From Lignipirellula cremea (GTDB lineage: Bacteria > Planctomycetota > Planctomycetia > Pirellulales > Pirellulaceae): DNA of 64,000 bases. Under the pieces are notes generated by a model that worked only from the letters and a program-made list of their open reading frames with translations, ran no database searches and was not told the DNA's origin. Positions 2,349-50,190 of the stretch are shown here, in pieces. Each line of letters opens with the position of its first letter. The first letter of the stretch is position 1. The translations under genes were made by a program, and so were the position numbers. The stretch covers positions 4,445,001-4,509,000 of the forward strand of contig NZ_CP036433.1 of assembly GCF_007751035.1 (NCBI RefSeq), in the 5' to 3' direction.

Positions 2349-3236
2349 TTAGTCCCGCAGACGAAAACGGACTGGCAGTTTTTCCGTGGTGGGGATTGCG
2401 GCGCCAAACAGTTGGGCCGGTTCGCCCCTCCATTTCTGTACGGCATTCACGGCGGCCCGGTCCAGGATCGGATAGCCGCTGGACTGCAGAATTGTCACCC
2501 GACCGACCCGTCCGCTGGCGGCGACTTCCAGTTCCAGCATCACGGTGCCTTCCCAGCCGCGGCGTACGGCCTCGGCCGGATACTGGGGGGCCTGGTTGCT
2601 GGAAAAGTCCGGCGGCGTTTTGGTTTCCACTCCCAGCTGCACCGTAGCAGCAACCGCAGGAGGCTGGGTCACCGAAGGCGCCGTGCGCAGCGGACGCTTG
2701 GGCTGCTCCGGCGGTTTTTCGACGATGCGTTCCTCCGGCTCCGGGCGCCGAACCGCCAGTGGAACCGCCACTCGCTCCCGCGGACGGGACTCGGGCTTCG
2801 CAGCCGCTGGAGGTTCGGCTGCCACGGCTTGGGTGCGCGGGACAGGCAGCAGGGCGACTGTCAGGACGGGCGGCGGGGTGTTTGTCTCGACAAGGGTTTT
2901 GACCTCAGGAACGGGAGGAAGCGGCTCCCTCGTTTCGGGTTCCGGCAGCAGGGGCGGCGCCGGCTCGACAGGCGGTTCCGGCTCCACGGGTGTTGGGGGG
3001 GAGGCTTCGGCTTCTGGCTCGACCTCGATGGGGACGGTTTCTTCTACCTGTTCGAGCGCCGGCTGGGCGAGGGAAGCTTCCAGGTAGATGGCTGTTTGAC
3101 TGCCTGCAACTGCAAAGTGCTGCTGAGGAATCGTCCACAAACAGGCCGTCAACGCAGCCCCATGCGCGACCAGCGACAGGGTAAATGCCTTGGAGAGCGT
3201 CGGTTGCAAAAAGCGGCGGCCGATTGTTATCACCAA
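2349..3236 (-). CDS. tonB: TonB-type energy transducer
   Basis: 295 residues. A single N-terminal membrane anchor (about residues 16-36) follows a short basic tail. A long Pro/Glu-rich periplasmic spacer then runs to about residue 210 (repeats such as PVEPEPPVEPAPP). The C-terminal TonB domain contains APQYPAEAVRRGWEGTV and ends with a strand-helix-strand around SSGYPILDRAAVNAVQKW. TonB carries energy from ExbB/ExbD to outer-membrane receptors. The gene lies 18 bases downstream of hemP on the same strand, which points to haem or iron uptake. No exbB, exbD or receptor gene is in the window. Confidence 0.85.
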   Translation of the reverse strand: MVITIGRRFLQPTLSKAFTLSLVAHGAALTACLWTIPQQHFAVAGSQTAIYLEASLAQPALEQVEETVPIEVEPEAEASPPTPVEPEPPVEPAPPLLPEPETREPLPPVPEVKTLVETNTPPPVLTVALLPVPRTQAVAAEPPAAAKPESRPRERVAVPLAVRRPEPEERIVEKPPEQPKRPLRTAPSVTQPPAVAATVQLGVETKTPPDFSSNQAPQYPAEAVRRGWEGTVMLELEVAASGRVGRVTILQSSGYPILDRAAVNAVQKWRGEPAQLFGAAIPTTEKLPVRFRLRD

Positions 3237-3254
3237 CCCAGGTGGGGTAGTCGT

Positions 3255-3473
3255 CTACTTGGTTAAATACAGTTTACCCGATGAAGTCAGACGCAGCCGG
3301 TACATGTTCTCCTGATGCTCGATCCAGACCTCCCTGCGACCCTGCAGCAACTCAAAGGACTGATAGATCAGCGGACGATCGGAGCTTTCGACAGGAGACT
3401 CCTGATCTTCCGGGGAGAATTCAGGTTCGGCAGGACAATTGCCGGACGGGCTCGGCATGGCGATTTTATTCAT
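3255..3473 (-). CDS. hemP: HemP-family haemin uptake protein
   Basis: About 72 residues with the conserved HemP C-terminal block: SFELLQGRREVWIEHQENMY followed by RLRLTSSGKLYLTK. HemP is a small protein of haem-uptake loci and in some proteobacteria activates haem-receptor expression; its role in planctomycetes is not established. The frame is open for 52 more codons upstream. The ATG at 3473 gives a length closer to the family norm, but no strong ribosome-binding site decides between 3473 and 3458. It lies directly upstream of tonB, probably in one transcript. Confidence 0.8.
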   Translation of the reverse strand: MNKIAMPSPSGNCPAEPEFSPEDQESPVESSDRPLIYQSFELLQGRREVWIEHQENMYRLRLTSSGKLYLTK

Positions 3474-3893
3474 AAGAGTGGCGATCTTCGGCGAGAAAAA
3501 ACGAGGAGAGCGTACATCCTGGTCTTCAAGCAAAGCATGCGCCCAAGTCGCGGTCGGCATGGACCTTCCATCGCCAACGGAGACGAAATCCGTGCCGGAC
3601 GACCACCGTCGTGGTCCAAATACAGGCAAAAGTCTGGCAAAACGCGGCCTCAGACGGGATTGGTCTGCCCTGCCTTCCTGCTTTTCGAGGAGCTTTCCGC
3701 AATCACCAATCGGCCTGATTTTCGGCCCGGGACCTTGCCTGCCAAAGGCGGGGATGTCTATTCAGGCGACAAGCATGTCGGTTTTTTCGACATTCAGGAG
3801 AGGGTCTGCCAAAGAGTCGGGCCGCCATCCCATTGATTTCATCATCCGAAGGTCTATAAAGCATCGGGTTCTCACGAACCGAGGCGGAAGTTT
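3474..3893. other. Intergenic region between divergent hemP and glnA
   Basis: About 420 bases. It contains the glnA promoter (3833-3860) and a short leader hairpin GGTTC-TCAC-GAACC at 3867-3880 just before the glnA ribosome-binding site. No Fur-box palindrome was recognised on the hemP side by eye. Confidence 0.5.
3833..3860 (+). promoter_or_regulatory. Sigma70-type promoter of glnA
   Basis: TTGATT (3833-3838) and TATAAA (3855-3860) are separated by 16 bases, 33 bases before the glnA ATG. Both hexamers match the consensus well. No sigma54-type GG-N10-GC element was noticed here, so nitrogen control of this promoter would need another route. Confidence 0.6.
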
Positions 3894-5339
3894 ATGTCGT
3901 TGGCTTTTTCGAATGGGGTGACACGCGTGCAACCTAGCGAAGTGTTGGCATTGTGCCGCGAGAAGGATATCAAGGCGGTTGATCTGCGGTTCATGGATTT
4001 TCCGGGACTGTGGCAGCACACCACGATCCCGATCCGCCACCTCACCGAAGACGTTTTCGAAGAAGGGCTGGGCTTCGACGGCTCCAGCATTCGTGGCTGG
4101 CAGGCCATCAATGAGAGCGACATGCTCATCATTCCGCAGCCGGAAACGGCCTTTGTCGATCCGTTCACGCAGCTGCCCACGCTGGTGATGATCTGCAATA
4201 TCCACGACCCGTCGACCGGAGAAGAGTACAGCCGCGATCCCCGGAACGTGGCCCGCAAATCGATCAACTATCTCCGCAGCACCGGCATCGCCGATACCTG
4301 CTTTATCGGCCCTGAGGCCGAGTTCTTCGTCTTTGACGATATCCGCTTCGATCAGCGGGCGAACGCCGGCTTTTACTTCATCGACAGCATCGAAGGGGAG
4401 TGGAACCGGGGCCGCGACGAAAACCCCAACCTGGGCTATAAGATCCGGCACAAGGAAGGCTATTTCCCCGTCCCGCCGACCGACTCGTTGATGGACCTGC
4501 GCAATGAGATGATGCAGACAATGATCGAGTGCGGCCTGGATATCGAGTGCCAGCATCACGAAGTCGCCACCGCCGGCCAGTGCGAAATCGACATGCGCTA
4601 CGGCGAACTGGTCCGCATGGCCGACCAGGTGCTGATGTTCAAGTACGTCATCAAAATGACGGCCAAAAAGCACAACAAGTCGGTCACCTTCATGCCCAAG
4701 CCGATCTTCAACGATAACGGTTCAGGCATGCATACCCACCTTTCCCTCTGGAAAGAGGGCCAGCCGCTGTTCGCTGGCGGCGGCTACGCAGGACTGAGCG
4801 ATATGGCCCTGCACGCCATCGGCGGCATTCTGAAGCATGCCCCGGCGCTGTGTGCGTTTACCAATCCGACCACCAACAGTTACAAGCGACTGGTCCCCGG
4901 TTACGAGGCTCCCGTTAATCTGGCGTACTCGCAGCGAAACCGCTCGGCCGCCTGTCGCATTCCGATGTACAGCCAGAGCCCCAAAGCGAAGCGGATCGAG
5001 TTCCGCTGCCCGGACCCCAGCTGTAACCCGTACCTGGCATTCGCCGCCATGTTGATGGCCGCGATCGATGGCATCCAGAATAAAATCAGCCCTGGCGAAC
5101 CACTGGATAAAGATATCTACGATTTGCCGCCCGAAGAGCTGGCCACCGTGCCGAAGACGCCAGGTTCGCTCGATGAAGCGCTTGACGCCCTGGCGGCGGA
5201 CCACGACTTTTTGCTGCGGGGCGACGTCTTCACCCAGGACGTCATCGGCACCTGGATCCACTACAAGCGGACCCACGAGGCCGACGCGGTCCGCCTGCGG
5301 CCGCACCCTTATGAGTTTTGCTTGTATTACGACATTTAA
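3894..5339 (+). CDS. glnA: Glutamine synthetase, type I
   Basis: 481 residues, the usual length for GSI. It makes glutamine from glutamate, ammonia and ATP in the cytoplasm. Visible motifs are the N-terminal beta-grasp block [12 protein letters not shown], the metal/glutamate site [10 protein letters not shown], the ATP-binding block [14 protein letters not shown], and NRSAACRIP and [15 protein letters not shown] near the C-terminus. The segment [12 protein letters not shown] keeps the Tyr that is adenylylated in GSI-beta enzymes, so GlnE-type control is possible; no glnE is in the window. The ATG at 3894 has a GAGGCGG ribosome-binding site and a good promoter upstream. nadC follows in the same direction and may be cotranscribed. 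Confidence 0.95.
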
Positions 5340-5431
5340 TCTGCCCGCCTGAGCGGCGGCCGCAGCCGGAGTTTGGCCGTGTGGAAAACCCGACAGCATC
5401 CCCGTTGCCCTGGCAAGGAAAGGAAACTGGC

Positions 5432-6352
5432 GTGACGCGAGACTATCGGCAAGTGGCGTGGGATAGCGCCCTGGAAGACGACCTGCGACAACTGATCCGA
5501 CTGGCGGTTCGCGAGGACCTGGAACGGGCCCAGGACTGGACGACCGTCGCGCTGGCTCCTGCGGGTGTCCGCTCCCAGGCCGGCGTCGTGGCCCGGCAGC
5601 AAGGCGTCGCCGCGGGACTGCAGGCGGCGGAGATCATTTTCCACGAGATGGATATTGACGCCCGTGTGGAAAGAATCGTCGAAGACGGCCAGCGGCTGCA
5701 GCCTGGCCAGACTTTGCTGGAAATCGACGCTCCGACGCGCGACCTGCTCACGGCGGAGCGCACCCTGCTGAACTTTCTGGGGCGGCTGTGCGGCGTGGCG
5801 ACCAATACCGAGGCGTATGTCGCCCGCATCACGGGCTGTGCGGCCCGGCTGTACGACACGCGGAAAACGACGCCCGGCTGGCGACGGCTGGAAAAGTACG
5901 CCGTGCGTTGCGGCGGCGGCGTGAACCATCGGACCGGCCTGTACGACGCCATCCTGATCAAAGACAACCACTTGGCCTTTGCCCAGTCGACCGCCCGCAC
6001 GCCTGCGGATGCAGTCGCCGCCTCGCGTGATTTTCTCTCCCAGTATCCCGGCGGACTGCCGGAGATGGTGATCGAAGTGGAGGTCGATACGCTGGAGCAA
6101 CTTCAGCAGGTTCTGCCACAGTCACCCGATGTGGTGCTGCTGGACAACATGCCGCCGGAGCAGCTCCGTCAGGCGATCGGTCTCCGCGATCAGCTGGCCC
6201 CTGGCGTGGCCCTGGAAGCTTCGGGCGGGATCACCCTGGAAACGATTCGCTCGATTGCAGAAACAGGGGTCGATCGGATTAGCGTCGGCGCCCTGACGCA
6301 TTCGGCGATCAACTACGATGTGGGACTCGACTGGCGCACGCCCGTGGAATAG
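5432..6352 (+). CDS. nadC: Nicotinate-nucleotide pyrophosphorylase (carboxylating)
   Basis: 306 residues. The enzyme converts quinolinate and PRPP to nicotinate mononucleotide in de novo NAD synthesis. Diagnostic motifs are DTRKTTPGWR (142-151), KYAVRCGGGVNHR (155-167), IKDNH (176-180), a VEVDTLEQL block, and EASGGITLETI followed by GVDRISVGALTHS near the C-terminus. The frame is open back into the glnA 3' end (5318), but GTG at 5432 is preferred because AAGGAAAGGAAA lies just upstream. An in-frame GTG at 5381 is the alternative. It lies 92 bases after glnA on the same strand. nadA and nadB are not in the window. Confidence 0.9.
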   Translation: MTRDYRQVAWDSALEDDLRQLIRLAVREDLERAQDWTTVALAPAGVRSQAGVVARQQGVAAGLQAAEIIFHEMDIDARVERIVEDGQRLQPGQTLLEIDAPTRDLLTAERTLLNFLGRLCGVATNTEAYVARITGCAARLYDTRKTTPGWRRLEKYAVRCGGGVNHRTGLYDAILIKDNHLAFAQSTARTPADAVAASRDFLSQYPGGLPEMVIEVEVDTLEQLQQVLPQSPDVVLLDNMPPEQLRQAIGLRDQLAPGVALEASGGITLETIRSIAETGVDRISVGALTHSAINYDVGLDWRTPVE

Positions 6353-6354
6353 AG

Positions 6355-6447
6355 CGGCGCCTTGCCGTATCCAACATCAGGCGCCGGGACGCTGATCGCC
6401 GGAAGCCGGCGACGGGCCTCCAATGCGACGGGCGAGATTGCCCGTCG
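6355..6447. terminator. Two hairpins between convergent nadC and purF
   Basis: CGGCGCCT (6355-6362) pairs with AGGCGCCG (6379-6386), and CGACGGGC (6426-6433) pairs with GCCCGTCG (6440-6447). Neither has a T-run, so intrinsic termination is uncertain. Their position between convergent genes suggests bidirectional 3'-end structures. Confidence 0.35.
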
Positions 6448-6494
6448 TGCGTATTACGGAGTCCATGAAACGAGCAAACGAAACGGCGGGCCGC

Positions 6495-8111
6495 TTACTT
6501 GACGTGCGTCGCCAGTTCGGCGGCGGCGTTTTCATAGGTGCGAGTCTTACCGTTGCCGACCTGCCTCAGGGCGATCTCGTACAGGTCCTGGCCGCGTTTG
6601 GTTGGGTATTCGCCGGTGATGCAAGCCTGGCAGAGCTGGTCGCGATCAAAACCGATGGCCCGGCTGACTGCTTCGACCGGCAGGTATCGGAGCGAATCGG
6701 CCCCGAGCGTTTTGGCCATTTCTCGCTGTACCTCAGCGGTCAGATTGCCGTCGGGCATGAACTTGGGAGCGAACAGTTCGTCCACCCGGGACATGTCGAT
6801 CCCGTAGAAACAGGGGGCGATAATGGGGGGACAGGCGACGCGGACATGGATTTCTTTCGCTCCACCTGCCGAACGCAAGCGGTCCAGCAGCACCTTCATC
6901 GTTGTCGAGCGAACGATCGAATCCTCGACCAGGAAAACACGTTTCCCTTCCAGGACTTCACGAAGCGGCGTGTACTTGTTCTGGGCTTTCCGTTTGCGGC
7001 CTGCGCTGCCTTCGATAAAGGTGCGGCCGCTGTAACGGTTGCGGATCAGGCCTTCGCGTGAAGGCAGGCCCAGTTCAAACGCCATGGAGTCGGCGGCCGC
7101 TTTGCTGGTGTCGGGAACCGGCACCACGATCGTGTCCTTGTCAAAGGGCATCGTCATCAGCGGGTCGGACATTTCCAGCCGGGCTAGTTCGGCGCCCAGG
7201 TTGCTGCGCGACTGGTAGACCGAGCGTTCGTCGAGCGTACTGGCGACGTTGGCGAAGTAGACCCATTCGAAAAAGCAGTGGGCCTTGCGCGAAGAGGGCA
7301 CAAAGTTGGCGATTTCGAACTTGCCGTTGACGATGGTTATCGCCTGGCCCGGCAGCAGCGATTTGATGCTTTCCGGCTCAAAACCCAGATTCAGCAGAGG
7401 CACGCTTTCACTGGCGGCGGCGAACAGCGAGCCTTCTTTGGCGTAGCACATCGGCTTGATGCCCAGCGGATCGCGAGCGATCAGCATGTCCCCCTGGGCG
7501 TTCAGCAGCACCAGGGAGTAGGCGCCATCGAACAGGCGATCCAGGTTAGCCATCATCTCCAGCAGCGTCGGCTTCTGATCGCCTGAGTACTGCCGGCAGA
7601 TTTCATGCATGATGATTTCGGTGTCGGTCTCGCGCGCCAAATGGTGCTTGTCGTCGCTCAGCAATTCATTGCGCAGTTCCTGGTAGTTGGTCAGCTGCCC
7701 GTTGAAGGCAAAGCTGAACCACTTCCGTTTTTCGACATGGTGCCTTTCAAAAGGCTGGGCGTAGCTGCGATCTTCGGCCCCGCAGGTGGCGTAGCGGACG
7801 TGGCCGATGGCGGCGCGGCCGGCGTACTCCCGCATGAGGCTTTCCCCTTTTTTCCGTCGCGACAGATAAAAGGCCTCGCTAACCATGCCGATCCGCTTGT
7901 GCGTATCGATCAGCTGGTTGCGTCGGGGGTCGTAGGTCGTCATCCCGGCGGCAAGCTGGCCGCGGTTCTGGATGTCGAGCAGCATTCGCGGCATCAGTCG
8001 CGATACTTCCTCCGAACCCTGCTCCGGGCAAAGCGGACTGACCGGACCATTTGGAAGATGGTAAATCGCGGCGACGCCGCATTCATGATGGAGTTCAGTC
8101 ATCGTTTTCAA
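6495..8111 (-). CDS. purF: Amidophosphoribosyltransferase (PurF family), iron-sulfur type
   Basis: 538 residues, somewhat longer than the 470-505 usual for PurF. It catalyses the first committed step of purine synthesis, glutamine plus PRPP giving phosphoribosylamine. The N-terminal nucleophile is Cys11 ([11 protein letters not shown]), implying removal of a 10-residue propeptide. The glutaminase domain has GHVRYATCG and FNGQLTN. The phosphoribosyltransferase domain has the PRPP loop [11 protein letters not shown] (394-404); the usual Asp-Asp and Arg-Gly-Thr-Thr are here Glu-Asp and Arg-Ser-Thr-Thr. Cys279, Cys434, Cys494 and Cys497 fall where the Bacillus-type enzyme binds a 4Fe-4S cluster. 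A divergence from standard PurF, or a paralogue, is possible. It is convergent with nadC. Confidence 0.85.
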
Positions 8112-8651
8112 GCGGCAGTTGGCGGTCTAGGGGCGCTGGACGGAGGCAAAAGTCGCGGAAAAGAAGCTCAACCGCCTGGTGTGTTTTCGCAGCCCGAAAA
8201 AGCTATCGAATCCTGTCCGGCGGTCGCTGGAGTCGGCATCGTCCCTGAAGCAGTTTCCCTCGCAGTCGAACTGACCGACTGCCCATTTTCCATCGCGTGT
8301 TTTCTTCGCTGGCGGACTGGTTTTGAAGATGATCACCCGAATGAAGGGGGTCGATCATGGGGAAAGGTCGAAGTGTCCCACGGCTTTGATTATTCTAGGA
8401 GCGCGTCGCCAAGTTCACAAGCGACAAGTCGATACGATTTCCAATCCGTCGCCAGCGGACGGGCCAGGATCGCTGCAATCGGACGACTTTACCATCTGCT
8501 TTTCCTGGCCTGAATTCCCTGGCACAGGCAGGCGGTTTGCGGTATTATATCCACCACTATTGATTGCTTACGGCAATCGTACCTGCCTGCCGACGTCCCC
8601 CCGCTCGGTAACCTACCCTCCAGCCCAGTTCACTCTTCGGAAAGCACCGCG
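8112..8651. other. Intergenic region between divergent purF and a DUF1549 gene
   Basis: 540 bases with no supportable gene. TATTAT at 8543-8548 could be the -10 box of the DUF1549 operon, but no good -35 lies at the right distance. No purine riboswitch-like structure was recognised upstream of purF. Confidence 0.4.
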
Positions 8652-10283
8652 ATGAAATGCTCGCTGTTCTTGATGCTGGCGGCTTGCCTTTTCTCAACCG
8701 CAAATCTTTGGATAACGCCCGCGAACGCCGACGATCTGCTGCCGGCCGACACCCCGATCGCCTCGGTAATTAACCATTACGTGAACCAGCGGATGGCGGC
8801 CCTGAGAGTCCAGCCGACCCCGCCTGCGGAAGACACCCTGCTGCTGCGCCGCACCATGCTGGATCTGGTGGGACGCCCGCCGACTCTGGTGGAAGCTCAG
8901 GCGTACGCCGCCGACGAAAACCCGCACAAGCGGGACGAGCTCATCTCGCGGCTGATCGGTTCGCCCGGCTTTGTCCGGCACCAGGCCGATGAGATGGACC
9001 AGTTCCTGATGCTCAGCTCCGGCGGCACCGTGCGCACCTACCTGGTGAAGGCCCTGGAAGAAAATCGTCCCTGGGACCAAATGTTCCGCGACCTGCTGCT
9101 GGGCGAAACCGACGACGTGGAACAAAAAGGGGCGATCGAGTTTGTTAAACGTCGCGTGAGCGATCTCGATAAACTCACGACTGAAGTCAGCTCGATCTTT
9201 CTCGGCGTGAACGTGAGCTGCGCCCAGTGTCATAACCACCCGTTTGTCGACGACTGGACTCAGGACCATTTCTACGGCATGAAATCGTTCTTCGGCCGCA
9301 CCTTCGACAACGGCGGTTTTGTCGGCGAACGCGATTATGGTCTGGTCTCCTACAAAACGACCGAAGGCGAATCCCGCGAAGCCAAACTGCTGTTTATCAC
9401 CGGTGTCGAGCTCGAACAGCCGCCCGTCAAAGAAATGTCCGATAAAGATCGGAAGGCAGAGAAAGAGCTGCTCGACAAACTGAAGAAGGACAAAGAAGCT
9501 CCCCCTGCCCCGGAGTTCAGCCTCCGCGCCAAGCTGGTCGAAACGGCTTTGGCCACTGGGCAGAACGAACTGTTCGCCAAAGCGATCGTGAACAACCTGT
9601 GGGCCCGCTTCTATGGCCGCGGTCTGGTCGATCCGGTCGACCAGATGCATGCCGAAAACCCGCCCAGCCATCCGGAACTGCTCGACTGGCTGGCCCGCGA
9701 CTTTATCAACAACGGCTACAATCTGCAGCGTCTGATCGATGGCCTGGTGCGGAGCGAAGCGTACGCCCGCAGCAGCCGGTTGCCTGAGGGCGACTATCCG
9801 CCTGCGACCGCCTTTGCCGTCGGCTCGGTGCGACCGTTGCGGCCGGAAGCCTACGCGGCCGTGCTGAAAATGGCCGCGACCAGCCCCGACTTTTTCCCTG
9901 CCGAAATGTCGGTTGAGGATCGTGAAAATCGGGCCGAAGGGATCGTTTCCCGCTCGCGCACCATCGCCCGTTCTTTTGAGCAGCCGGCCCCCGGTTTCCA
10001 GGTCAGCGTGGATGAAGCCCTGCTGATGAGCAACGGCGATCGCATCCGCAGCGAGCTGCTGTCCACCTCCAGCGAAGCGTTGCTGGGGAAACTGAACGCG
10101 ACGCCCGATCGCGCGGAGGCGATTAACCTTTTGTTCTGGAATGTCTGCAGCCGCCCTCCAGAAGCCGGCGAAGTTGAAGCCATCCAGGCCTTCCTCAGCA
10201 GTCGGCAGGACGACCTGCCCCAGGCGTACAGCCATGTTGTCTGGGCTTTGCTGACCAGCAGCGAGTGCCGCTTTAACTACTAA
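8652..10283 (+). CDS. Secreted DUF1549/DUF1553 protein with CxxCH motif
   Basis: 543 residues with a signal peptide (MKCSLFLMLAACLFSTANLW, then cleavage near ANADD). DUF1549 covers roughly residues 30-235 (LRRTMLDLVGRPPTLVEAQA) and DUF1553 roughly 290-540 (NNLWARFYGRGLVDPVDQMH and a YARSSRLPEGDY block). The heme-type motif CAQCH at 190-194 is followed by NHPFVDDWTQDHFYG, which is typical of the family; whether heme c is bound is not known. These proteins are hugely expanded in Planctomycetes and almost always paired with DUF1501, as here. Function is unknown, though sulfated-polysaccharide use and envelope roles have been suggested from context. First gene of a four-gene colinear set. Confidence 0.85.
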   Translation: MKCSLFLMLAACLFSTANLWITPANADDLLPADTPIASVINHYVNQRMAALRVQPTPPAEDTLLLRRTMLDLVGRPPTLVEAQAYAADENPHKRDELISRLIGSPGFVRHQADEMDQFLMLSSGGTVRTYLVKALEENRPWDQMFRDLLLGETDDVEQKGAIEFVKRRVSDLDKLTTEVSSIFLGVNVSCAQCHNHPFVDDWTQDHFYGMKSFFGRTFDNGGFVGERDYGLVSYKTTEGESREAKLLFITGVELEQPPVKEMSDKDRKAEKELLDKLKKDKEAPPAPEFSLRAKLVETALATGQNELFAKAIVNNLWARFYGRGLVDPVDQMHAENPPSHPELLDWLARDFINNGYNLQRLIDGLVRSEAYARSSRLPEGDYPPATAFAVGSVRPLRPEAYAAVLKMAATSPDFFPAEMSVEDRENRAEGIVSRSRTIARSFEQPAPGFQVSVDEALLMSNGDRIRSELLSTSSEALLGKLNATPDRAEAINLLFWNVCSRPPEAGEVEAIQAFLSSRQDDLPQAYSHVVWALLTSSECRFNY

Positions 10284-41558: not shown

Positions 41559-42908
41559 ATGTCTCAATTGCCTCGCCTGGGTCTTGGTTCCGTGGGTGGT
41601 CCTGCAAGTAACAATCCGGCGATTGCCAGAATGGCCGCCTGGGCTTTGGGGGAGCGTTGCGATTGGTCGAGCAGTTTTTTCTCAGCCGGCCCGCTGGGAT
41701 CAGCGGCCAACCCTTTTTCCAGTGAAACGATCTGCCTGGATCCCTGGTCGATGTCGCGTCAGTCGTGCCGCCAGCGCTTCGGTTATGCGGCCCATGCGGC
41801 GGACGGGGCGATGGTTTGTGGTTCGCTGGGAGCGCCCTTGGAGCAGTTGCGGGACTGGCTGGATCTGCCGCTGATCGCGGTGCTCGATGCGCAAGATGAG
41901 GAGGCATTTGGGTTCGACAGTTGCCGCATGCCGCCTTCGGAGCATGGGATCGACGGCGTTCTGATTGTCGGCGCTGGCGACGCCTGGAGGGCTGCCGCGC
42001 TTCGCACCTCGGTCGAAGCGCTCTGGCGGGTGCCGGTGCTGGGCGTACTTGATGAACCAGCCAGTCTGCGGGCGGAAGTCCAGGCCGCCTGCGCGACCGA
42101 TGCAATGCCGTCGCGTTCCCTGCAGCGACGCCTGGCCCAGTGCTGGCGGGCGGGGCTCAAGCCCGAAGTCGCCCGGCAGATCGCCCAGAGGCCGTTTCCC
42201 TGGAACGCCAGCGAGCTGTTTCATGCCGACCAGCTGAGCCCGTTGCGCGTCGCAGTAGCGTTCGACGACGCCTTTTATCAGTATCTACCGCATACGTTCG
42301 ACGTGCTGGAAGCCTGCGGCGCCGAGGTGCGGGACTTTTCTCCGCTGGTGGATGACTGCCTGCCGCCTTGCGATCTGGTTTACCTGGGCGGCGGTCGCGT
42401 TGCCGAGTGGGCCGAATCGCTTAGCCAGAATTGCTGCATGCGGCAGGCCCTGGCGTTGCACCTGTTGCGAGGCGGCAAGCTGTATGCGGAGACCGATGCC
42501 GCGGCCTACCTGTGTCGCGAACTGCTCACGGCCGATGGACGGCATCATGCGATGCTGGGCGTGCTGCCCGGCTTTGCGGTGGAGACGGATCAAACCGGCT
42601 TGAGTCCCGTCGCTGTGACGTTGCCGGTCGATACCTGGCTGGGCGACAGCGGCCATACGCTGCAGGGCTATGCGGATCAGGGCATTCGTTTGCTCCCCGC
42701 TCCTGCCCTGGCGTGCGAAGGCGGCTTTATCTCCTGGCCCGCGACCCACGACGGTTGTTCGGGCATGTCACAGGGCGGCGTGATCGGCTCCCGGTTGGGG
42801 CTCGACCTGCTGGCCTGTGCAGAGCATCTGAAACGCTCCGCAAAGGCTGCCCCAGTCGCCGCCGCATCGCACCAGGCGCCATTTGTGGGAGAAGACCGGA
42901 TCGAGTAG
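41559..42908 (+). CDS. CbiA/CobB-like (cobyrinate amidase) protein lacking catalytic residues
   Basis: 449 residues, full length for cobyrinic acid a,c-diamide synthase. The N-terminal half aligns in order (LGLGSVGGPASNNPA in place of the P-loop, then ICLDPWSM at 58-65 and ADGAMVCGSLGAP at 81-93, where CbiA has LDPWMM and a D-x-x-x-x-EGVMGLFDG-like segment). The GATase half has RVAVAFDDAFYQYLPHTFDV and DFSPLVDDCLPPCDLVYLGG then GGRVAEW. The amidase nucleophile region, normally AECGG, reads AETDA (310-314), so the Cys is lost as Thr312. The C-terminal His is also not seen, and no GKT/S P-loop remains. It is therefore probably a non-enzymatic relative with binding or regulatory function. No other cobalamin gene is near. 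Confidence 0.75.
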   Translation: MSQLPRLGLGSVGGPASNNPAIARMAAWALGERCDWSSSFFSAGPLGSAANPFSSETICLDPWSMSRQSCRQRFGYAAHAADGAMVCGSLGAPLEQLRDWLDLPLIAVLDAQDEEAFGFDSCRMPPSEHGIDGVLIVGAGDAWRAAALRTSVEALWRVPVLGVLDEPASLRAEVQAACATDAMPSRSLQRRLAQCWRAGLKPEVARQIAQRPFPWNASELFHADQLSPLRVAVAFDDAFYQYLPHTFDVLEACGAEVRDFSPLVDDCLPPCDLVYLGGGRVAEWAESLSQNCCMRQALALHLLRGGKLYAETDAAAYLCRELLTADGRHHAMLGVLPGFAVETDQTGLSPVAVTLPVDTWLGDSGHTLQGYADQGIRLLPAPALACEGGFISWPATHDGCSGMSQGGVIGSRLGLDLLACAEHLKRSAKAAPVAAASHQAPFVGEDRIE

Positions 42909-43949: not shown

Positions 43950-44678
43950 GGGTGTCCTCGGTTCTGGCAAGGAAACGCATTCGGCTCGGGCATCCTGACC
44001 GGCGGGTGTGCGTAGAACTCGATTCCTGCGAGCTGGTTTCGTTCTCAACGCGGAACTTTCTGCAGGGAAACAAGGAGAAGGATCCGCGGGAGACCATCGT
44101 TTCATTTTCGCAATCTCTTTGCAAACGGCCAGGGGAAAAAGCTCCTGTCGGCGGCAACCGGGAAAAAACCTGGGCCTTCTCTTCCGGCGATTGCTCACAA
44201 TCCCCCAGGTCACAGGCGAAGGGTCCGCCTTTCGCGCAACGGCGGGACGGCCCCTCGAACTAACTTACGTCGTGAAGAGAAAAAAGTTGTCGAAAAACAG
44301 ACAATTGTGTGGCGAGACCGCCCTGGGGCCAGAAAACGAGGGGTGCTGTCACAAGGCTGCTGGCCCGATGACAGCAATTCCGGCAGAAAGTGGTCAGGGC
44401 GTCGGAAATACGCAGTGTGCTTTCGATCCCGATCCGACATGACGAGCAGTGGAAAGGAGCGTATCCAGGGGGAAATTCGCCTTGAACTGGCTGCGATTGT
44501 TCGGTATTGACAATTTTATGGGAGAATGGGATCCCCCTGGGAGTTCATGTTTCTCGCCATGGATTGGGACGAATTGTCACCGGCGATTTACAGGAATCGG
44601 CGTCGGCGACAGCATTCTGTCCAGGGTTTCGTACGGCGATGGAACTGGTCCCGCCATTCCTTCCACGAGGGATCTGTA
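43950..44678. other. Intergenic region before the twin glycosyltransferase genes
   Basis: About 730 bases between divergent genes. No supportable gene was seen. A perfect TTGACA at 44507-44512 has no matching -10 box at 16-18 bases; TTGAAC (44482-44487) with TATTGA (44505-44510) is a weak alternative. Confidence 0.4.
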
Positions 44679-45602
44679 ATGGCAATTAACGCGCCGGTGG
44701 CGTTTTTTATTTTTAATCGGCCCGAGGTCACCCAACGCGTTTTTAACGCCATTGCCCAGGCGCGCCCCCGCACTTTGATGATTGTTGCCGATGGCCCGCG
44801 AATTGACGTCGAGGGCGAAGAAGCTGCGGTCGCAGCTACGCGCGCGATTATCGACCAGGTCAACTGGCCGTGCGAAGTGCTGAAGAACTACTCCGGTGAC
44901 AATCTCGGTTGCAAGATTCGGGTCTCCAGCGGCCTGGAATGGGTATTCCAGCAGACGGAGGAAGCGATCTTTCTGGAAGATGATTGCCTGCCCGCTCCCG
45001 GATTCTTCCCTTTTTGTCAGGAACTGCTGGAACGATACCGCCACGATTCGCGGGTGGTCAGCATCACCGGCAATAATTTCCAGGACGGGATCTCGCGGAC
45101 TTCGGCCAGCTATTATTTTTCCAAATACTTCCACTGCTGGGGCTGGGCTGGCTGGCGGCGCACGTGGGAAGCTTTTGATATCAATCTGCCCAGCTGGCCG
45201 GCCTTTCTGGAGGAGGGCGGCCTGGCGAACGTTGCCGATTCTCCGGCCGAAGAGCAGTGCTGGCGCAGGATCTTCAACGCCCAGCATCGGGGCGAGACCA
45301 ATAGCTGGGCTTACGCCTGGCTGTTCTCTTGCATGACGCAGGGATTGACCGCGACATCTGACCAGAATCTGGTCTCTAACATCGGCTTCGAGCCGAACGC
45401 GACACATACGACGCGAGAGAGCCTGCTGGCCAATCTCCCCACCCCCTCCTTTGGCGAACTCATTCATCCGACCGAAGTGTTGCGCCACAAAGCGGCCGAC
45501 CTGCATACTTTTGAAAGTGTGTTCCGCCGGCCGCCGCTGCTGAAAAAGTGGAAAAACTCGGTCAGGAAGCGTTGGCGTCGCCTGACGAAGCCTGCCGCCT
45601 GA
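44679..45602 (+). CDS. Glycosyltransferase, twin copy 1
   Basis: 307 residues. It starts MAINAPVAFFIFNRPEVTQR, a beginning shared with HlpA-like GT2/GNT-I-type enzymes, and has the acidic metal motif IFLEDDCLPAPGFFPF (Glu-Asp-Asp) for nucleotide-sugar binding, then SKYFHCWGWAGWRRTW and ISWAYAWLFS-like C-terminal blocks. It is cytoplasmic with no membrane helix; donor and acceptor unknown. ATG 44679 has GAGGG seven bases upstream; the frame is open earlier. The next gene is a close paralogue of identical length, so this is a tandem duplication. Confidence 0.8.
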   Translation: MAINAPVAFFIFNRPEVTQRVFNAIAQARPRTLMIVADGPRIDVEGEEAAVAATRAIIDQVNWPCEVLKNYSGDNLGCKIRVSSGLEWVFQQTEEAIFLEDDCLPAPGFFPFCQELLERYRHDSRVVSITGNNFQDGISRTSASYYFSKYFHCWGWAGWRRTWEAFDINLPSWPAFLEEGGLANVADSPAEEQCWRRIFNAQHRGETNSWAYAWLFSCMTQGLTATSDQNLVSNIGFEPNATHTTRESLLANLPTPSFGELIHPTEVLRHKAADLHTFESVFRRPPLLKKWKNSVRKRWRRLTKPAA

Positions 45603-45888
45603 GGAAACGTGAGCCGTTTGCCCGACGCCGGCCCAGCATGCTATCTGTCTGCCGCACGAACAGACCGTTTTTGCACGGAAAGGGCCCTGCGCAGACCGCT
45701 TCTAGCAGGAATGCAGGAGGCAAGCTCCTCTTGAGCCGACTGGCGTTGTCCAGTAGTTAGTGGATTGTCGCCACGTTCCCTGGATTCGTGGGGAACCTCC
45801 TTGCTGGATGCAGGAACAAGCGACGGAGCTGAGCAGCGTGGAAGTTTTGGCTGCGGCTCCTGGTCATATTTTCGGTCAGGACTTTAAG
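45603..45888. other. Spacer between the twin glycosyltransferase genes
   Basis: 286 bases with no recognised gene. It is long for an operon, so copy 2 may have its own promoter. Confidence 0.4.
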
Positions 45889-46812
45889 ATGACGCTTGCC
45901 GCTCCTGTGGCATTTTTTGTGTTCAATCGGCCCGAGGTGACACAGCGCGTTTATAACGCGATTGCCCAGGCCCGCCCGCGCACTCTTCTGCTCATCGCTG
46001 ATGGACCGCGGAACGACCGCGCGGGCGAGGCGGAGGCAGTCGCCGCCACGCGGGCTATCGTCGATAAGGTGGACTGGCCGTGCGAAGTGTTGCGGAACTT
46101 CTCCGCAGAGAATCTGGGTTGCAAGCAACGCATTTCCAGCGGTCTCGATTGGGTTTTCGGGCAGGTCGAGGAAGCGATAGTGCTGGAAGACGATTGCCTG
46201 CCGTCTCCGGCGTTTTTCCCCTTTTGCGACGAGCTGCTGGAGCGTTATCGATACGACTCCCGCGTGGTTTCGATCACGGGCGACAATTTTCAGAACGGGC
46301 ATTTGCGGACTTCGTCCAGCTACTATTTTTCCAAATACTTTCACTGCTGGGGCTGGGCCGCCTGGCGCCGGACGTGGCAGACGATCGATGTCGACATGGC
46401 GACCTGGCCTGCCTTTCTGGCGGAAGGGAACCTGGCGAATCTTGCCGATTCTATCGCCGAAGAACAATACTGGCGGCAGATCTTTAACGCCCAGCAGCAA
46501 GGGCTGACCAGCACCTGGGACTATGCGTGGCTGTATTCGTGCATGTCGCAAGGGCTGACAGCGACGCCCAACAAGAATCTCGTCGCCAACATTGGGTTCC
46601 AGGCCAACGCTACCCATACCAAAGGGGACAGCTGGCTCGGGAAGCTTTCGACCGGGTCCCTGGGCGAACTGATCCATCCGCATGCCGTGCTGCGCCACAA
46701 AGCCGCCGACCGACAGACGTTTGAGTCTGTTTTTCAGCCGCCGCCGCTGCTGAAGAAGTGGCGAAACTCGCTCAACAAACGCTGGCCGGGCAAGTCAGTT
46801 CCGGCGGCGTGA
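45889..46812 (+). CDS. Glycosyltransferase, twin copy 2
   Basis: 307 residues, exactly the length of the preceding paralogue. It shares long stretches with it, for example PVAFFVFNRPEVTQRVYNAI, VLEDDCLPSPAFFPFC, SSYYFSKYFHCWGWAAWRRT and LRHKAADRQTFESVFQPPPL. ATG 45889 was chosen from the alignment with copy 1 and the AGGA site upstream; the open frame begins 43 codons earlier. The differences are scattered, so this is an old duplication with both copies under selection. The acceptor probably differs between the two. A GT11-type gene lies convergent on its 3' side. Confidence 0.8.
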   Translation: MTLAAPVAFFVFNRPEVTQRVYNAIAQARPRTLLLIADGPRNDRAGEAEAVAATRAIVDKVDWPCEVLRNFSAENLGCKQRISSGLDWVFGQVEEAIVLEDDCLPSPAFFPFCDELLERYRYDSRVVSITGDNFQNGHLRTSSSYYFSKYFHCWGWAAWRRTWQTIDVDMATWPAFLAEGNLANLADSIAEEQYWRQIFNAQQQGLTSTWDYAWLYSCMSQGLTATPNKNLVANIGFQANATHTKGDSWLGKLSTGSLGELIHPHAVLRHKAADRQTFESVFQPPPLLKKWRNSLNKRWPGKSVPAA

Positions 46813-48326: not shown

Positions 48327-49358
48327 TTAAATCGGCTGCTGCGATCGACGGGAGGTCGGTTCGGAGCCGAGCGTGCGGGCTGTTTCCACGGCGTCGCTTA
48401 CGGCGGCGACGACCTGTCGGGAGGGCTGATCTCGCTGGACGACCTCAACCAGCGGTTCGCCCGGCCCCTCAAACTTGCCGTACTTTAACAGCAGTCCCGC
48501 AGCGAAGGCTACCGCCTTTTCTGAGGCCCGGCCGGCGACCAGGGCGAACGGGCCCAGAAAATTCGCCGGATACAGATACGCCGTGCTGGCGGCGTCGGGT
48601 AATTGGTGCGCGTATTTCAGGGCGTCGTTCTCTGCTTCGTTACGGCCGACCATCACTTTGGTCTCCGCGTCGAATCGGAAATGGCGGCCCTGGCGGAGGA
48701 CTTCGTAGTCCCAGCGACGGGCTTGCGGCTGGATCTGGATCAGGTCGAAGACCTTTTGCGAAAACAGCGGCTCCGTCAGGGCGCACCCAGTCGACGGCGT
48801 GGGCAAGGAGCGCAGTCCCAGTTTTTTGCCCAGGGCGATCAGCTCTTTCCGACTGCGGCCGACAAAGCCGTAAAGCTTTTCTCGATCGACCCAGCCTTCC
48901 CGTTCCGGCAATGTGGGATGGAGCACTCTGGCCGAGAGCGGACGGAGCAGCAAGTCGTCGAGGTGGGAATGATGGGCAATGACCTCAAGATCGGTGCGTT
49001 TCTGGCTCATCGGCCGCTGGCCGACGACTTCGCCGCTGATGATAAAGCCGGCGTCGATCTGTTCCATAAAGCGTTTGGCTTTGTCGAACATGTAGATCCG
49101 GCAGTCGACGCACGGGTTGGCGCCTTTGCCGTAGCCATATTCGGGCTTGCGCAGCAGTTCCAGGTAGTCGTCGTCCTGACTGACCACGGTCAACCGCACG
49201 CCCAGGTCATGAGCAGCCTGGGCCGACTGGTCCTGGCAGCAGGTGAATAACGTTTTGAAGTTGAGTGCTTCGACCTCGATGCCTTGTTCCTGCATCAATC
49301 GGATCGCCAGCATGCTGTCGAGCCCGCCTGAGAGCAGGGCGACACATCGCTTACTCAT
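48327..49358 (-). CDS. PP-loop ATP pyrophosphatase, MnmA/ThiI-like tRNA thiolation enzyme
   Basis: 343 residues. It begins MSKRCVALLSGGLDSMLAIR with the PP-loop SGGLDS (10-15). Two cysteine motifs suit sulfur relay: NPCVDCRIYMF (around residue 83) and STGCALTEPLFSQKVFDLIQ. The central HHSHLDDLLLRPLSARVLHP block is shared with tRNA thiouridylase-type proteins. The likely activity is ATP-dependent tRNA sulfur insertion at U34 or U8; which one cannot be decided. The C-terminal 100 residues are a separate small domain. ATG 49358 overlaps the rnc stop by 8 bases, so translation is probably coupled to rnc. Confidence 0.75.
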   Translation of the reverse strand: MSKRCVALLSGGLDSMLAIRLMQEQGIEVEALNFKTLFTCCQDQSAQAAHDLGVRLTVVSQDDDYLELLRKPEYGYGKGANPCVDCRIYMFDKAKRFMEQIDAGFIISGEVVGQRPMSQKRTDLEVIAHHSHLDDLLLRPLSARVLHPTLPEREGWVDREKLYGFVGRSRKELIALGKKLGLRSLPTPSTGCALTEPLFSQKVFDLIQIQPQARRWDYEVLRQGRHFRFDAETKVMVGRNEAENDALKYAHQLPDAASTAYLYPANFLGPFALVAGRASEKAVAFAAGLLLKYGKFEGPGEPLVEVVQRDQPSRQVVAAVSDAVETARTLGSEPTSRRSQQPI

Positions 49359-50190
49359 TTCCTGAGCCTTCCTGTGACGCCGTAGAAGAATCGGCGCGAG
49401 TCTTACCGTTGGAAAGGGCGTCCTCGCCATCTCCGTTAAATGCTTTCAAGTAATCAGGAACGCCATGGAAAACGGGCGGTTCGCCGCGCAACTGGGCCAG
49501 GGCGTTACAGGCGGCCTTTTGTTCGGCCTCCTTTTTATTGCGTCCCCATGCCGGGTGATAACGATCGTCGGCGACCTGCGCGGCAATCTGAAAGCACTTG
49601 CTGTGATCCGGGCCCTTTTCATTGACCAGCTGATAAGCGGGGGTCGAGCCAAATTCCCGCTGTACATACTGCTGCAGCTGGGATTTGTAATTGCTCATGA
49701 CGCCATCGCTGGCGGCCCGGTCAATTTCGTCGACAATATGCTTTACGATGAACGCCCTGGCCGGTTCGTCCCCACCGTCGAGGTACATGGCCGCGACCAG
49801 CGATTCAAAGACGTCGGCCAGCAGCGAACGCGGCACTTTGGGAGTGGAAGCCATCCCCTTGCCGACAATCAGGAAGTCTTCCAGGCCAAGCGCATCACTG
49901 ATGCGGGCGCACGTCTGCCGACTAACGACGACCGATTTGATCTTGGTCAGATCCCCTTCCAGATAGTTGGGGAACTTGCGAAACAGCATTTCGCAAACCA
50001 CGGCGCCAAAAATTGCGTCGCCCAGAAACTCCAGGCGCTCGTTCGACTGGACCCGATGGTCGGCGCCGGAGGCATGGAGCAAGGCGGAATTCAGCAGGGA
50101 TTTGTCCGTGAAAACATAACCGATGCGTTGTTCGCAGGCAGCCAGCTTTTCTTCCAGCTCGTCGGATTGGATTTCCGAGGATGAAACCAT
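49351..50190 (-). CDS. rnc: Ribonuclease III
   Basis: About 279 residues from ATG 50190; ATG 50223 is an alternative. The RNase III signature NERLEFLGDAIFG gives Glu51, Glu54 and Asp58 of the active site, and LLADVFESLVAAMYLDGG carries the second acidic pair. A double-stranded RNA-binding domain covers about 165-240 (NYKSQLQQYVQREFGSTPAY and NKKEAEQKAACNALAQL). A 35-residue polar tail follows. It processes rRNA precursors and structured mRNAs. No strong ribosome-binding site is seen for either start. A long hairpin sits in its leader (50235-50292) and may be its own substrate. Confidence 0.9.
   Translation of the reverse strand: MVSSSEIQSDELEEKLAACEQRIGYVFTDKSLLNSALLHASGADHRVQSNERLEFLGDAIFGAVVCEMLFRKFPNYLEGDLTKIKSVVVSRQTCARISDALGLEDFLIVGKGMASTPKVPRSLLADVFESLVAAMYLDGGDEPARAFIVKHIVDEIDRAASDGVMSNYKSQLQQYVQREFGSTPAYQLVNEKGPDHSKCFQIAAQVADDRYHPAWGRNKKEAEQKAACNALAQLRGEPPVFHGVPDYLKAFNGDGEDALSNGKTRADSSTASQEGSGNE

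Follow-up and report, generated by a model that had tools for sequence, protein, structure and literature searches.

A CbiA-like protein of Lignipirellula cremea that lost its amidase and ATP sites, probably a pseudoenzyme working by binding

Analysis of a 64,000-nucleotide stretch of the Lignipirellula cremea genome (contig NZ_CP036433.1, positions 4,445,001 to 4,509,000; here called the window) revealed a gene for a full-length CbiA relative in which the residues for amide transfer and ATP use are changed. We consider it probable (about 0.62) that the encoded protein belongs to an old pseudoenzyme branch of CbiA/CobB, which works by binding and is independent of cobalamin synthesis. The examined members of this family, which was detected within the Planctomycetota class that includes the host, have lost both catalytic centers. 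The making and transfer of ammonia and the ATP-dependent activation of carboxylates would be gone, and the old glutamine and substrate pockets may have been rebuilt as a putative site for a ligand or a partner protein.

Reading frame and lost catalytic residues

The window gene comprises 449 codons from ATG to TAG. Only four more open codons precede the ATG (open frame of 453 codons), and a P-loop is therefore not hidden upstream in the same frame. The gene and its parts are as follows.

41559..42908 (+): CbiA-like pseudoenzyme, whole gene including the stop codon, 449 amino acids (Pfam, NCBIfam, hhalign, ORF check)
41559..42245 (+): N-terminal synthetase-like part, about residues 1 to 229; P-loop and GPDYID lost, LDxW (L60 D61 W63) kept
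42246..42887 (+): GATase_3-like part; Pfam match at residues 230 to 345, CbiA alignment reaching residue ~438 to 443
42390..42395 (+): oxyanion loop G278-G279 (YLGGG); Gly278 in the window protein, Cys278 in 65/72 family members
42483..42500 (+): YAETDA, at the position of the YAECGG nucleophile; Thr312 in the window protein, Gly in 64/72 members
42663..42683 (+): QGYADQG, at the RGHEFHY position; Gln374 in the catalytic His column, Tyr371 in 72/72 members

We regard the frame as real because of its homology and not its length: the chance of 449 stop-free random codons at this composition is about 1.5e-5, but the longest open stretches in 100 single-base shuffles of the 64-kb window had a maximum of 542 and a mean of 283, so that shuffles can match the length. 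G+C by codon position is 0.70, 0.53, and 0.73, and four neighboring genes are equally high-low-high. The DNA of the window has a G+C content of 61.0%, and 61.4% is given for L. cremea Pla85_3_4 in the available part of PMC7717058.

Pfam identified GATase_3 alone (residues 230 to 345, E = 2.3e-12, over the Pfam cut-off), and the CbiA nucleotide-binding domain was absent from the Pfam matches of the window protein. Five CbiA-type NCBIfam models matched (E values of 2.7e-31 to 1.9e-16), but none reached its cut-off. When nine proteins were compared using Pfam, seven of the new family yielded GATase_3 alone and two true CbiA proteins yielded both domains. From the sequence profiles, we infer a CbiA-like fold for the window protein; a structure model, built on an alignment of the window protein with the loci L001 and L002 only, was too poor to use (mean pLDDT, 45; pTM, 0.35).

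Residues were counted in 72 distinct family members (53 from the host's order, 18 from f22, a second bacterial family, and one from f120) and in 33 distinct true CbiA proteins. Assignment to the two groups depended on profile scores alone and was independent of the counted residues (a family score above 380 or a true score above 400; in a later set, whichever score was higher), with duplicate loci and two true-type fragments (L025 and L096) left out. The P-loop lysine and the pattern GxGK[ST] were each found in none of the 72 members versus all 33 true CbiA proteins, and the Gly, Lys, and Thr positions of the P-loop are Ser, Asn, and Arg in the window protein. Both aspartates of GPDYID are likewise found in 0/72 members versus 33/33 true CbiA proteins. 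The aspartate of LFDG in EG..LFDG occurs in 6/72 versus 33/33; the glutamate of this motif is retained in 58/72 members and is Cys in the window protein. We take these acidic residues of GPDYID and EG..LFDG to have a role in Mg/ATP and catalysis.

The nucleophile of AECGG, Cys312, is present in five of the 72 members (L009, L010, L119, L126, and L129) and the catalytic His of RGHEFH in one (L135), versus 33/33 true CbiA proteins in both cases, and no member has Cys and His together. Position 312 is mostly Gly in the family and Thr in the window protein, and the His is replaced by Gln in the latter. We regard these columns as the catalytic positions because CGG and GFENH of GatD share columns with the Cys and His motifs of true CbiA in our alignment, and because catalysis by GatD depends on Cys94 and His189 according to the available part of PMC5871853. 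Judging from the sequences, the loss of P-loop, acidic motifs, Cys, and His is neither private to the window protein nor recent. Since the P-loop is lost in all 72 members, nucleotide binding in the CbiA manner is unlikely.

These results agree with the initial annotation of the gene as a full-length CbiA relative of 449 residues with an intact frame that lost its amidase and ATP sites: the open reading frame was confirmed, the homology extends over 435 columns (see below), and the window protein departs from true CbiA at every one of the P-loop, GPDYID, EG..LFDG, Cys, and His positions. A non-amidating role is likely, given a full-length CbiA relative with an intact frame and without these sites. 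Orthologues with the same AETDA change, proposed as a check in the initial annotation, were not found: none of the 71 other members has this motif, which is private to the window protein.

Family definition, spread, and selection

The window protein was searched against 60 genomes including that of the host, and 23 of them matched. The divergent form without a P-loop is present in 21 of these (host included), and the other two (G023 and G045) match via true CbiA only. A profile of 21 family proteins aligned with a true CbiA profile over 435 columns at 100% probability in hhalign. The window protein scored 446 bits on the family profile, in which it is itself one of the 21 rows, versus 100 bits on the true CbiA profile.

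With the family profile, matches were obtained in 66 of the 296 order genomes searched (scores of at least 315 bits in 57), in 65 of 392 phylum genomes (above 390 bits in only four), and in 78 of 397 class genomes (at least 298 bits in 68, among them 39 of f22 and one of f120); the best four to five candidates were scored per genome, and second copies may be missed. By score, about 100 genomes are carriers (60 of the order, 39 of f22, and one of f120), and the protein was examined in 72. In the host's own family, the gene is present in 6 and absent from 30 of 36 other genomes. The gene is likewise missing from the majority of the genomes sampled in the order, so the role of the family is dispensable. 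In f22, a second, weaker match (155 to 228 bits) was found in 8 of 39 carriers and is probably a true CbiA.

Family members and true CbiA proteins are split by a branch with an SH-aLRT support of 100 in both of two trees (tree 1, 53 + 31 rows; tree 2, 72 members and 14 of the 33 true CbiA rows). Both trees were built by a quick method with midpoint rooting, and long branches were flagged, which leaves the position of the window protein inside the family unsure. Its branch measures 1.85 and 2.07 in the two trees; the window copy is a fast-evolving family member. It shares Tyr371, Trp360, Asn291, and Cys293 with the family. Of the 72 alignment columns with a conservation of 88% or more in the other 52 members of the first set, it keeps 59 and departs from the family at 13. 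In retaining family-conserved residues, it ranks fourth lowest of 53 (51/59). Many of the family-conserved columns are common to true CbiA (LDxW, FSPL, AE).

Nei-Gojobori dN/dS ratios ranged from 0.043 to 0.240 in 13 pairs of relatives and from 0.047 to 0.398 in 7 further pairs; some members stand in more than one of these pairs, and a number of the dS values exceed 1 and are imprecise. The relatives are under purifying selection. Purifying selection, one of the checks proposed in the initial annotation, holds for the relatives (0.04 to 0.40 in 20 pairs), and the window gene itself is in none of these pairs. No close relative of it was found among the genomes searched. For the window copy, we infer constraint from the residues kept and from a frame that has stayed open along a branch of about two changes per site.

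The family profile had no PDB match at an E value of 0.01, and a scan of genome contigs for relatives returned only two, both of them true CbiA. The matches listed in literature searches included no paper on this CbiA-like pseudoenzyme family. According to the available part of PMC3444138, a 'cobyrinic acid ac-diamide synthase' carries an insert specific to planctomycetes; this protein could be a true CbiA, a ParA-type protein so named, or one of the CbiA-like pseudoenzymes. One family member (L171 in G745, 2766-9320) lies within an open frame of 2185 codons, which probably reflects overextension of a GC-rich frame and not a fusion. Single in-frame stops occur within some profile matches (G862, G709, G799, G772, G757, and G778) and may stem from assembly error, frame limits, or decay.

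Cobalamin genes and gene neighborhood

The host assembly is a single contig of 9,565,229 bases and 99.99% complete. A CbiA over the TIGR00379 cut-off was not found in it, the sole match at E values up to 1 being the window gene, and neither CbiC nor CobS matched over cut-off. The true CbiA that had been expected elsewhere in this genome is thus missing at this cut-off. The host seems to use B12, since it has two B12-binding domain matches over cut-off though the three synthesis markers are absent. No split CbiA was seen in the spacing of its possible parts: PF01656 gave 14 matches in the host (12 over cut-off) and PF07685 gave five, with no PF01656 match within 40 kb of a PF07685 match. A second host GATase_3 match over cut-off was rejected as CbiA, as it is by eye a HisH-like frame of 239 amino acids; three more matches scored under the cut-off.

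Among the 21 carriers in the 60 genomes, true CbiA over cut-off was found in two (G034 and G040), CbiC in the same two, and CobS in two (G040 and G047). The remaining 18 are without CbiA, CbiC, and CobS alike, although incomplete assemblies may hide some. Family members thus seem to occur mostly in genomes apparently not making B12, and we consider the family independent of cobalamin synthesis because 18 of the 21 carriers tested are without the three markers. The initial remark that no cobalamin gene is nearby was correct for the nine neighbors scanned using Pfam (35.8 to 49.4 kb of the window), and no cobalamin gene was recognised among the shared neighbors of family loci.

Shared neighbors of the family gene are RNase III, HtrA, a ThiI-like gene, PdxJ, DapA, and MgtE (named by eye unless Pfam was run). 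Two of them were located in the window.

48330..49430 (-): ThiI-like (tRNA thiolation-like) and NFACT-R_2 RNA-binding gene (Pfam); near RNase III in 10/40 other loci
49354..50181 (approximate) (-): RNase III gene, named by similarity and by eye

Of 41 loci including the window, 22 show linkage of RNase III to the family gene, 16 have an HtrA-type protease directly upstream, and 11 have PdxJ downstream; several of the 41 loci are cut off at contig ends. In the window, the block is rearranged, since RNase III and the ThiI-like gene are on the other side, about 7 to 8 kb away. The RNase III linkage supports orthology and vertical descent and not a function, and we read the neighborhood as old shared synteny instead of a functional operon. 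In f22, no cluster common to at least 4 of 18 loci matched these neighbor genes.

An MgtE-type Mg/Co transporter gene follows immediately 3' on the same strand in 6 of the 41 loci (L052, L055, L059, L061, L147, and L149), a placement that could be chance synteny. The window also holds, at 44526-45602 and 45760-46812 (+), genes for two similar proteins of about 350 amino acids in tandem, both starting with APVAFF.FNRPEVTQRV. This pair is a duplication amid glycosyltransferase-type genes and had no Pfam match at an E value of 0.001.

Gained residues, alternative readings, and known systems

Several residues were gained in the family. Tyr371 is found in 72/72 members versus 0/33 true CbiA proteins, Trp360 in 69/72 versus 1/33, Cys278 in 65/72 versus 0/33, and Cys293 in 58/72 versus 0/33, and the Cys content of the family is 2.9% versus 1.5% in true CbiA. 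Cys278 is the middle residue of a loop that aligns with GGG of GatD, the oxyanion-hole glycine region according to the available part of PMC5871853. It is the only new Cys near-universal in both groups of the family (f22, 18/18; others, 47/54). Cys293 (5/18 versus 53/54), Cys319 (0/18 versus 47/54), Cys122 (1/18 versus 43/54), Cys98 (1/18 versus 39/54), and Cys303 (17/18 versus 17/54) differ between f22 and the others. Cys278 and Gly312 are typical for the family but not defining, because they occur in 65/72 and 64/72 members and the window protein has Gly278 and Thr312. That another Cys might have been restored, which the initial annotation named as a refuting result, applies in part to the family and not to the window protein. 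Covariation of the new Cys columns is weak among 53 members (largest phi, 0.50; Cys241-Cys278, 0.40; most under 0.25), and a metal site was not accepted on this signal.

The gained residues suggest, as a tentative possibility, that the family is rewired and not dead: with Cys312 changed to Gly, Gly278 to Cys, and Tyr371, Trp360, and often Cys293 added, the changes may have produced a novel cysteine-based enzyme or else a site for a metal or cofactor, the window protein being a secondary loss. The frequency of these residues in the family against their near absence from true CbiA, the presence of Cys278 in both groups, the raised Cys content, and the alignment of the GatD GGG loop and catalytic Cys with the Cys278 and Cys312 columns of true CbiA are in line with this. 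However, the window protein has neither Cys, the new Cys columns covary weakly and, except for Cys278, mostly differ between f22 and the rest, and Cys may merely substitute for small buried residues. Slightly more tentative still is the idea of an undescribed planctomycete family that turned a corrin amidase into a cysteine-centered enzyme or cofactor-binder unrelated to B12, with an emptied nucleophile elbow, a Cys in the oxyanion loop, and an invariant Tyr replacing the first His of RGHEFH, from which the window protein lost the Cys and kept the scaffold. A binder or sensor of a tetrapyrrole (corrinoid or heme-like) that retains the CbiA substrate site is doubtful. CbiA ancestry along the full length and a host with B12-binding domains but without the three synthesis markers fit such a role, but no cobalamin gene is among the nine neighbors or the recognised shared neighbors, most carriers are without the markers, and no corrin-site residue is assignable.

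The long branch, the 13 changed columns, and the absence of the gene from most other genomes of the host's family could also point to a former CbiA in decay, a pseudogene in the making. This is improbable, given a 449-codon frame that is intact after about two changes per site, a coding-like G+C by codon position, the recurrence of these losses across the old, conserved family, and low dN/dS in relatives. The initial annotation raised regulation of the true CbiA. A role as regulator of a true CbiA within the cell, or as its inactive partner subunit, has a general precedent in pseudoenzymes that act on their active paralogues. It is very unlikely here: 19 of the 21 carriers among the 60 relatives are without a true CbiA over cut-off, and the 99.99% complete single-contig host genome, in which neither CbiA, CbiC, or CobS over cut-off nor a split CbiA was seen, refutes it for this organism unless its CbiA is too divergent for TIGR00379. 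Our preferred reading is that of an old pseudoenzyme branch working by binding; the job of the window protein would need neither cysteine, since Cys312 and Cys278 are both absent.

A catalysis-free CbiA scaffold retained across several bacterial families is a clear case of a repurposed amidotransferase, and the defined set of lost and gained residues is open to structure and binding assays. As the host matches a cultured type strain, the window gene can be studied directly.

Like the CbiA/CobB enzymes, the family has the two-part layout, the block order, LDxW, FSPL, an oxyanion-type loop, and the AE elbow; unlike them, the window protein is without P-loop, GPDYID, and the Cys/His dyad, and it scores below CbiA-type cut-offs (75 versus 261 bits for TIGR00379; 109 versus 254 bits for an NCBIfam model). 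GatD of the MurT-GatD lipid II amidating complex, a GATase_3-type relative, can be aligned to the C-terminal portion of true CbiA and, according to the available part of PMC5871853, retains catalytic Cys94 and His189, unlike the family. With CfbB, the Ni-sirohydrochlorin a,c-diamide synthase (NF033195), the window protein gave a partial match of 84.5 bits (cut-off, 560). CfbB needs ATP and glutamine. Plant PDX1.2 has a fold unrelated to CbiA and works alongside active paralogues; the host, in contrast, has no active paralogue over cut-off. Like the CbiA-like family, PDX1.2 is a pseudoenzyme that has been kept, and the available part of PMC6829848 terms it non-catalytic.
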